Shown here piece by piece: positions 13,388-58,539 of a stretch of DNA of 64,000 nt. The translations under genes and the position numbers were made by a program. Every line of letters starts with the position of its first letter. Position 1 is the stretch's first letter. The notes under the pieces are model-generated. The model searched no databases, was not told the origin of the DNA, and worked only from the letters and a program-made list of their open reading frames with translations. This DNA is from Pseudogemmatithrix spongiicola (lineage in GTDB: Bacteria > Gemmatimonadota > Gemmatimonadetes > Gemmatimonadales > Gemmatimonadaceae): the NCBI RefSeq assembly GCF_030623445.1, contig NZ_CP130613.1, positions 496,001-560,000 on the forward strand. The letters run 5' to 3'.

Positions 13388-13498
13388 AACTGCAGTTGAA
13401 AGTTGGCAGTTGGTAGTTGAAAGCACTGGACGAGGGGAGATGCGCGCCGGTCGCAGTTACTCCCAACTCCCAACTCACAACCCGCAACTGCAGTTGTG
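13388..13498. repeat. Inverted arrays of a CAACTCC-like heptamer between tdh and kbl
   Basis: The right arm (about 13453-13498) reads as consecutive heptamers CAACTCC, CAACTCA, CAACCCG, CAACTGC. The left arm (about 13388-13422) is the same kind of array on the other strand (CAACTAC, CAACTGC, CAACTTT, CAACTGC when reversed). Each arm ends in the palindrome CTGCAG. The central 30 bp show no strong hairpin. The element fills the 132-bp spacer between two genes of one pathway. Confidence 0.75.
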
Positions 13499-25876: not shown

Positions 25877-25942
25877 ATGGCTGCCAAGAAGAAGAAGGCC
25901 GCGAAGAAGGCCACCAAGAAGAAGGCCGCGAAGAAGAAGTAA
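25877..25942 (+). CDS. 21-aa lysine/alanine-rich peptide
   Basis: This very short gene encodes Met-Ala-Ala followed by runs of Lys broken by Ala pairs (12 Lys and 7 Ala in 21 residues), like the tail of histone H1-like proteins. A strong AAGGAG (25863-25868) sits 8 nt before the ATG, and a 10-bp hairpin follows 17 bp after the stop, so it has its own start and end signals. Such a basic peptide would bind DNA or RNA, but no function is known to me. It lies directly after the TldD/TldE operon. The NYN protein in this window ends in a similar Lys/Ala tail. Confidence 0.7.
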   Translation: MAAKKKKAAKKATKKKAAKKK

Positions 25943-25958: not shown

Positions 25959-25996
25959 CACACGGGGATCGTCGCGAGAGCGGCGGTCCCCGTGTG
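25959..25996 (+). terminator. Terminator-like hairpin after the 21-aa gene
   Basis: CACACGGGGA (25959-25968) pairs with TCCCCGTGTG (25987-25996). The 18-nt loop can itself pair weakly. No T-run follows. Confidence 0.65.
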
Positions 25997-26010: not shown

Positions 26011-26106
26011 GGGAGTTGGCAGTAGTGAGTAACGAGAAAAAGCGCGAAGCCTATGGCCTCGCGCTCTCTTCCAACTCCCAACTCACAACTTCCAACTGCA
26101 GTTGTC
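26011..26106. repeat. CAACTCC heptamer arms around a hairpin, convergent intergenic region
   Basis: The right arm (26071-26106) reads CCAACTC, CCAACTC, ACAACTT, CCAACTG and ends in CAGTTG. The left arm (26011-26030) is a looser inverted copy (GGGAGTTGGCAGTAGTGAGT). Between them, AGCGCGA at 26041 pairs with TCGCGCT at 26059-26065 with further GCC/GGC pairing, giving a terminator-like hairpin. The element lies between a plus-strand and a minus-strand small gene, so it can serve both directions. Confidence 0.7.
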
Positions 26107-26108
26107 AG

Positions 26109-26264
26109 TTACGCAGCTTCTACAGACGCCGGCTCGGATTCCTCTGGCACCGGCCCCCACACATATGCCGTAAACCGCGGCGCCGCTTCCGCCCGGCTCC
26201 CGCGCGAAATGACAATCCCCACCGGTTCCTGCTCAAGCTCTGCCTGCATCGCGATATCCACCAT
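26109..26264 (-). CDS. 51-aa hypothetical protein with strong ribosome binding site
   Basis: The product is a 51-aa acidic peptide (MVDIAMQAELEQEP...), with a central IVISRGSR stretch and a C-terminal TAYVWGPVPEESE segment. No family is recognised. The ATG at 26264 was chosen because AGGAGGGG stands about 8 nt upstream, one of the best ribosome binding sites in the window. A longer reading to 26342 has no such signal. The binding site lies inside a possible hairpin. The sequence does not look like a membrane or secreted protein. It stands alone between the Tld/Lys-rich locus and the methyltransferase operon. Confidence 0.6.
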   Translation of the reverse strand: MVDIAMQAELEQEPVGIVISRGSRAEAAPRFTAYVWGPVPEESEPASVEAA

Positions 26265-28931: not shown

Positions 28932-29092
28932 GCCACAGAGGCACGAAGGCACAGAGCCTTGCGTGCCTCTCGCCAGGATCGGTGAAATCGACCTGAATGC
29001 TGTGGGGCCCGCACCGACAGATTGGCGCGGGCCCCACAGCGTAAGTAGCGGTCGAACCAGCGCAATCCTCCGGGCCTCTGTGCCTCTGTGGC
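28932..29092. repeat. Inverted-arm element with 8-nt-period arms and hairpin core (copy 1)
   Basis: The left arm (28932-28956) begins GCCACAGAGGCAC and repeats an 8-nt word. The right arm (29073-29092) ends with GTGCCTCTGTGGC, inverted, for 13 bp of perfect complementarity. In the middle a 14-bp perfect stem (GCTGTGGGGCCCGC at 28999-29012, partner 29027-29040) closes on a 14-nt loop. It separates convergent mutM and rlmI and so could terminate both. A related copy lies at 53944-54079. Confidence 0.8.
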
Positions 29093-51728: not shown

Positions 51729-51870
51729 GCAGATGTGAGATGTAAGATGTGAGATGTGAGATCGGCGGCCGGTGTTACCGGCCGCCTTTTTCACAGGCGT
51801 AGATGCGAGTGGCCTCACAAAGCTGCATATTCCGTTCACTTACATCTCACATCTTACATCTCACATCTGC
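51729..51870. repeat. 29-bp perfect inverted arms of a GATGTGA heptamer around the sigma factor terminator
   Basis: The left arm (51729-51757) and right arm (51842-51870) are perfect 29-bp reverse complements. Each is a heptamer array (GATGTGA, GATGTAA, GATGTGA...). They enclose a perfect Rho-independent terminator at 51764-51791. The left arm starts 2 bp after the sigma factor stop and the right arm ends 8 bp before the GTG start of the ABC ATPase. Confidence 0.85.
51764..51791 (+). terminator. Rho-independent terminator of the sigma factor gene
   Basis: GGCGGCCGGT (51764-51773) pairs perfectly with ACCGGCCGCC (51777-51786) around a GTT loop, followed by TTTTT. It lies 37 bp after the sigma factor stop codon. 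Confidence 0.92.
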
Positions 51871-53943: not shown

Positions 53944-54079
53944 GCCACAGAGGCACGGAGACACAGAGCGATGCGTGCCTCGCACAGACATCGGCAGCAT
54001 CGACCGCCGCATGAGAGGGCGTCCGCGCCACATCAGGCGTGGCGTCGCGCAATCCTCCGTGCCTCTGCGTCTCTGTGGC
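53944..54079. repeat. Inverted-arm element with 8-nt-period arms (copy 2)
   Basis: The left arm (53944-53968) starts GCCACAGAGGCACGGAG and the right arm (54055-54079) is its inverted counterpart ending GTCTCTGTGGC. The interior matches copy 1 at 28932-29092 in several places (GCGTGCCT after the left arm, ATCGGN then CGACC, GCGCAATCCTCC before the right arm). The core pairs CGCCAC with GTGGCG. It lies between the AraC-type gene and the atp promoter region. Confidence 0.8.
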
Positions 54080-58418: not shown

Positions 58419-58539
58419 TCACCACGAAGGCACGAAGGGAGCCGCGACAATCGATCGGGCCCGCGACGCCGAAGCAGCGATGCTTCTTGGAGTCGCGGGC
58501 CCGAAAGTCTGCTGGGAGCCCTTCGTGCCTTCGTGGTGA
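58419..58539. repeat. Inverted-arm element with perfect 21-bp arms after atpC
   Basis: The arms (58419-58439 and 58519-58539) are perfect 21-bp reverse complements made of the 8-nt word CACGAAGG. The core has a 13-bp perfect stem (TCGGGCCCGCGAC at 58455-58467 with 58492-58504), and inside that a second hairpin GAAGCA/TGCTTC with a GCGA loop. It begins 7 bp after atpC and probably ends the atp transcript. Confidence 0.85.

Follow-up and report, generated by a model that had tools for sequence, protein, structure and literature searches.

Inverted arrays of 7- and 8-nt words at gene 3′ ends in Pseudogemmatithrix spongiicola: sites are retained across the genus and the word follows the genome

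The element located at positions 26011-26106 of the analyzed window (the whole stretch of 64,000 nt, corresponding to positions 496001-560000 of the 3.26-Mb single-contig genome of P. spongiicola, labelled G000) is one of dozens in this genome, in which tandem arrays of a short word point at a core from both sides. Comparison with other genomes of the genus revealed that the place, period, polarity and AACNGC terminus of these elements are retained, while the word changes and is characteristic of the genome, not of the site.

Structure of the element and its genetic surroundings

The left arm of the element (26014-26034, forward strand) is built of three 7-nt units, AGTTGGC, AGTAGTG and AGTAACG (all AGTNRNN), pointing at the core. 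The core hairpin (26041-26065; AGCGCGAAGCC-TAT-GGCCTCGCGCT) is terminator-like on both strands, as judged from its sequence, its fold and the relatives, and CTCTT lies directly 3′ of it. The right arm (26071-26097, reverse strand) comprises four inverted 7-nt units (CCAACTC, CCAACTC, ACAACTT and CCAACT) and overlaps the palindrome AACTGCAGTT (26094-26103), an AACNGC-type end that forms the right terminus; no clean AACNGC was found at the left end. When compared with dinucleotide shuffles, the RNA fold of the element gave z values of −5.7 (forward strand) and −6.5 (reverse strand). Its core region (26041-26070), a GC-rich hairpin followed by a T-rich stretch (−18.4 kcal/mol, z −3.6), has the features by which an intrinsic terminator is recognized, and is predicted from sequence and fold to act as one. 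The combination of heptamer arms and terminator-like core, proposed for this copy in the initial annotation, was thereby borne out. A known RNA family was rejected, since the best Rfam matches (20.5 and 19.3 bits) were far under the gathering cut-off.

The element occupies a convergent junction and, as had been noted, lies between two tiny genes (identified by our own gene calls). The upstream gene (25877-25942, forward strand) encodes a lysine-rich, histone-H1-like peptide of 21 aa and has a separate terminator hairpin at 25959-25996. The downstream convergent gene (26109-26264, reverse strand) encodes a protein of 51 aa which is conserved in relatives and for which no Pfam family was found. 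Both the 21-aa peptide and the 51-aa protein are well conserved across the genus.

The window had been thought to contain about seven such elements. We found six clear inverted pairs (starting at 13388, 26014, 28932, 51729, 53944 and 58419), while the seventh is a lone half-arm of the AGTTGNN family (F1) at about 48412 (genome position 544412). Another F1 element (13388-13495), located between tdh and kbl, lacks a terminator core and has counterparts in other words at the orthologous site in relatives. The arms of the AGATGTG/AGATGTA element (F2; 51729-51870) surround a terminator and a conserved CATATTC box, and contain no GG at all. The remaining three are built of 8-nt words: CACAGAGG/CACGAAGG (28932-29092; hairpin core at 28999-29040), CACAGAGG/CACGGAGA (53944-54079; several relatives have nested arrays there) and CACGAAGG (58419-58539; arms of 21 nt that are 100% complementary, hairpin core at 58455-58504). 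The folds of the elements are strong on both strands (z from −5.7 to −11.5), and the terminator core is frequent yet optional, being absent from the tdh-kbl element and from several copies with short loops. The view that these elements share a plan but use unrelated words holds for the plan; the words, in contrast, are not wholly unrelated, since AG-N-N-G-N-N describes many of the heptamers, and the AACNGC terminus is common to the families of 7-mers and of 8-mers.

Abundance and anatomy of the arrays in the genome

The inverted pair AGTTGNNAGTTG-N20..80-CAACTNNCAACT, in which two AGTTG units face two CAACT units at a distance of up to about 80 nt, has 22 matches per strand in the 3.26-Mb genome (overlaps included, so that several matches can belong to one element), and its reversed control has none. 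The three-unit pattern AGTNGNNAGTNGNNAGT was matched 59 times on the forward and 61 times on the reverse strand, compared with 4 and 0 matches of its reversed control. Sampled sequence of 565 kb contained 33 F1 clusters, nearly all of them pairs, whose units point inward to the core and in no case outward; the modal arm length was four units (27 of 50 arms). Further words present in this genome are AGATGTG (7 nt) and CACGAAGG and CACAGAGG (8 nt). As single words, AGTTGGG (28 occurrences in 464 kb versus approximately 33 expected) and likewise AGATGTG were not enriched, and a DNA-uptake or Chi-like word was rejected for this reason.

The F1 units resemble independent draws from the degenerate motif AGT[T>a]G[G>t>a][G>a]. 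Identity at the variable positions was 0.482 for adjacent units, 0.481 for random units of the family and 0.466 for units facing each other across the core. Neither adjacent nor facing units therefore show an excess of identity, which leaves no trace of slippage, of hairpin copying or of selection for exact pairing. These values led us to reject slippage-generated arms, which the initial annotation had suggested, as well as copying across the hairpin, and they give no support to its idea that the arms are shaped to pair. It had also stated that arms no more complementary than random arrays would speak against its reading: their complementarity does not exceed that of two random arrays of the word of the genome, and it arises because both sides carry that word. 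No four-unit strings common to different F1 loci were found, and there was a weak excess of common two- and three-unit strings. In arrays orthologous with those of the related genome G249, the core positions of the unit had changed in 5 of 124 cases and the variable positions in 14 of 85 (p = 0.003), in a small, hand-aligned set of loci found with a pattern that contains the core.

In most of the elements having an AGTTACG unit (190205, 303769, 1823906, 2020704, 2293678, 2313630 and others in this genome) the unit adjoins an AACTGC terminus at one end only, which makes F1 elements polar and not symmetric. Another inverted family, seen in the stretches L051 (5895-6052 and 16780-16925) and L046 (7583-7648), has longer arms; its words are G-rich and centre on AGACGGG and GGTACGGGCGG.

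Location at gene 3′ ends

The 27 F1 sites that could be classified with our own codon-score gene caller (five of the 33 clusters, lying inside called frames, were excluded from the junction classes) fell into 18 tandem, 8 convergent and 1 divergent junctions. The depletion of divergent junctions is significant when set against junctions of at least 80 bp (p = 0.0009), in contrast to the comparison with all junctions (p = 0.10). Within tandem junctions the array lies closer to the preceding gene, at a median distance of 11.5 nt from the upstream stop codon versus 55.5 nt to the next start codon (p = 0.02). These data support the earlier proposal that the elements are situated at gene 3′ ends.

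Same site, different word in related genomes

Seven orthologous junctions were read in genomes of the same genus, several of which are fragmented metagenome assemblies. Arrays of the same plan, mostly in a different word, were present in 38 of 47 cases (counted by eye). Between tdh and kbl, two-armed elements in other words occur in 7 of 14 relatives and a one-sided array in an eighth, the remaining ones having no array or weak traces of it; the words found there are AGGTGGG, AGATGGG, AGGATGA, AGACGGA, GACGGAT, the 8-mer CACAGAGA and a GTGAG-type word. Within the blocks syntenic with the tdh-kbl region, the arrays of the relatives are located almost only at the three junctions that are occupied in P. 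spongiicola. At the junction of the 26011-26106 element, all seven relatives have the hairpin core; in two of them it stands as a bare terminator, and the other five have arms on one or both sides, every one of these genomes using a word of its own; one-sided arrays are thus found among the copies of both of these sites. The site at 51729 has arms on both sides of the common core (the terminator and the CATATTC box) in 7/7 relatives, again each in its own word. Further F1 sites, chosen solely for their position (two stretches with two sites each), were occupied in 6/6, 6/6 and 5/6 relatives, and the fourth, readable in one relative, was occupied there.

The arms were most similar at different sites of one genome (0.807), and their similarity at the same site of different genomes (0.623) was close to that of arms sharing neither (0.616; shuffled arms, 0.550); none of 2000 permutations reached the observed value. 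The arms in this test were picked by hand, and it was repeated in an automatic version based on 8-mers shared by whole intergenic regions, which gave 0.118 for the same genome, 0.036 for the same site and 0.018 for neither (0 of 1000 permutations). The permutations ignore phylogeny, but kinship would raise the same-site similarity, which is the opposite of what was observed, and the direction of the result is therefore robust. The initial annotation had pointed to the same form with different sequence, and the orthologous sites, which keep the form and change the word, bear this out more strongly than had been proposed.

At the junction corresponding to 28932, the genome G073 (L096 3297-3357) carries a direct array of approximately 11-nt GTCGCCGGC-type units in place of the octamer element. 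The strict F1 pair pattern was detected in 2 of 249 genomes of the phylum, namely in P. spongiicola and in G139, which represents another genus of the same family; the AGTTG word thus recurs in G139, even though the strict pattern is missing from the genomes sampled between the two. In G139, AGTTGAG is accompanied by GTGAATC and 9-nt GCCGAGGAC-type words (L156-L159 and L195-L196). Comparable pairs spelt in different words were seen in short stretches sampled from other Gemmatimonadota, e.g. with GTGAATC in G139 and with a G-rich heptamer in G002, and the class of elements may extend beyond the genus.

The AACNGC terminus

The motif AACNGC (or GCNGTT) was counted 40 times in a set of 38 intergenic regions from the relatives, compared with a mean of 11 (maximum 23) in shuffled sequences and a median of 7 for motifs composed of the same letters, among which it ranked highest. 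It immediately precedes the first unit in 32 of 50 F1 arms and accompanies 7-mer and 8-mer words alike, so that the terminus is independent of the word; this supports the suggested link between the 7-nt and 8-nt classes as one architectural class. The site at 53944 has nested arrays with AACNGC separators in several relatives. In the orthologues of 53944 and 58419 (L163, L164 and L170), outer 8-nt arms are followed by AACNGC separators, inner arms of a second word and a central terminator. A search of genome contigs with a pattern of terminus plus arm gave a single match (PNKF01000170.1, Gemmatimonas sp. PR.013). The AAC...GTT ends may resemble those of integron attC sites.

Comparison with known repeats

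DNA uptake sequences form species "dialects" of a short word and occur as inverted pairs at gene ends; the arrays described here differ from them in being tandem and degenerate, with no enrichment of the single words. Like REP/REPIN sequences associated with RAYT, they are extragenic palindromes that occur scattered over the genome and consist of two inverted parts, but their arms are tandem degenerate words and P. spongiicola has no Y1 transposase. A search for literature on Gemmatimonas repeats found nothing relevant.

Among known repeats, the closest kind is found in Xanthomonas, whose paired GGGAATC heptamers (Rehm et al. 2015; PMC4692102) have a period of 7 and mostly four units, form convergent inverted pairs (70-75 per genome), lie at a mean distance of 28 nt from the ORF on their 5′ side and are scarce between divergent ORFs. 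A role in quadruplex formation has been proposed for them, and 83% are found in the same gene context in a sister species, with one word in both (PMC4692102). The elements of P. spongiicola likewise have tandem 7-nt units, approximately four per arm, in convergent inverted pairs; they lie near the end of the upstream ORF, are scarce between divergent ORFs (significantly only against junctions of at least 80 bp) and retain their sites across species. They differ in the use of 8-nt words, in the AACNGC terminus, in the inability of some words to form a quadruplex and, above all, in that each species has its own word at shared sites. What is new relative to the Xanthomonas repeats is this change of the word with the species while site, period, polarity and terminus persist. 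The intergenic G-rich heptamer arrays of Nostoc, GGGGA(C/T)T, are similar but include few inverted pairs (PMC4692102). The TAACTGA arrays of Beggiatoaceae (PMC4679880) are also genome-specific and intergenic (2-6 units, some split by related 7-mers), but almost all of them are single and placed just upstream of start codons, with one inverted pair.

Discussion

We propose, with a probability of roughly 0.4, that the arrays persist at gene 3′ ends because they serve a putative word-specific factor as degenerate sites in multiple copies. The module begins soon after a stop codon with AACNGC, followed by approximately four purine-rich 7- or 8-nt units directed toward a core, in many cases a predicted bidirectional terminator, and then by the inverted copy. 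With such a plan, a transcript arriving from either side would have the word array in the 3′ UTR, immediately ahead of the hairpin. The putative factor, which might be a small RNA or a protein that binds RNA or DNA, would act in trans on these 3′ ends; its specificity would drift from one species to the next, and the arrays would follow at the sites that are inherited, pairing of the arms being a by-product of the same word on both sides. We infer the factor from features that were observed directly, i.e. the anatomy, the 3′-end placement, the retention of sites across the genus and the genome-owned word. Six cases of the same site with different words (tdh-kbl, 26011-26106, 51729 and three further F1 sites) count in favour of it, as do the results of both permutation tests, the independence of the units, the lower rate of change of their core positions and the placement after stop codons. 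Against it count the coexistence of several words in one genome and the clean presence or absence of an element at one site.

That site (2102855), a clean gain or loss, has a whole element between two copies of AACTGCAGTT in G249 and a single copy of this palindrome in P. spongiicola. It fits the alternative of non-autonomous mobile palindromes (MITE- or REPIN-like), with AACNGC as the element end or target, which would insert just after stop codons and excise precisely, so that later families re-enter, the site being kept and the word swapped; we regard this as a serious rival, somewhat less probable than the factor. The same reading would account for the word-independent AACNGC with its excess over shuffled and same-letter controls, for nested arrays with AACNGC separators, for the patchy distribution of the strict F1 pattern in the phylum and for site 3026401, where G249 has an AGATGTG element with a different core in place of the AGTTGGG element of P. 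spongiicola, which looks like replacement rather than drift. It is harder to reconcile with the lack of four-unit strings common to F1 loci (and the weak excess of shorter ones), with the 51729 site, where the arms have changed around a core common to all relatives and the core has not been replaced, and with the occupancy of 38 of 47 orthologous junctions, which would demand extreme site preference. Nor did the search for mobility enzymes, which covered two Pfam profiles, provide a candidate: the Y1/RAYT transposase (PF01797) is absent from P. spongiicola, and RAYT-driven mobility was rejected; arrays written by a reverse transcriptase (PF00078) were rejected as well, this profile being found in 1 of 17 genomes of the genus and not in P. 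spongiicola.

Neutral turnover, in which slippage arrays are homogenised by gene conversion or by template switching at hairpins, is unlikely. The tandem arrays do adjoin hairpins, strand switching would yield inverted arms, and the two- and three-unit strings common to loci agree with it, but adjacent units are no closer than random ones, facing units bear no sign of copying, and slippage alone cannot give dozens of unlinked sites one word. The last point, the common word, is also something that pairing does not need, and some copies have an array on one side only; together with the lack of refinement of pairing at the variable positions, this makes it rather improbable that the elements are purely structural 3′-end hairpins, in which any complementary arms would suffice to protect mRNA ends or to strengthen terminators, in spite of their strong folds on both strands and their location at gene ends. 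The G-richness of the units and their number, approximately four to an arm as in Xanthomonas, would suit the G-quadruplex suggested for the repeats of that genus; the complete lack of GG in AGATGTG led us to reject it as a general function, and we consider such elements very improbable here.

Taken together, the word-specific factor seems to us the most likely explanation, with mobility and re-use of places a close second, and the two could coexist. On a broader scale we can only tentatively envisage a genus-wide, possibly phylum-wide gene-end system with inherited sites, whose dialect is rewritten genome-wide in each species by a fast-evolving putative factor. If true, this would be a bacterial case of concerted motif turnover. 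Earlier descriptions of paired (Xanthomonas) and single (Nostoc, Beggiatoaceae) heptamer repeats established neither a function nor a mechanism for them. By comparing members of one genus, the constant traits (place, period, polarity and AACNGC) could be told apart from the variable word, and since the word belongs to the genome, the old question of the heptamer repeats becomes testable. If a word-specific factor exists, it would add a new layer to 3′-end biology; if the elements are mobile, they would constitute a new class of very small elements.
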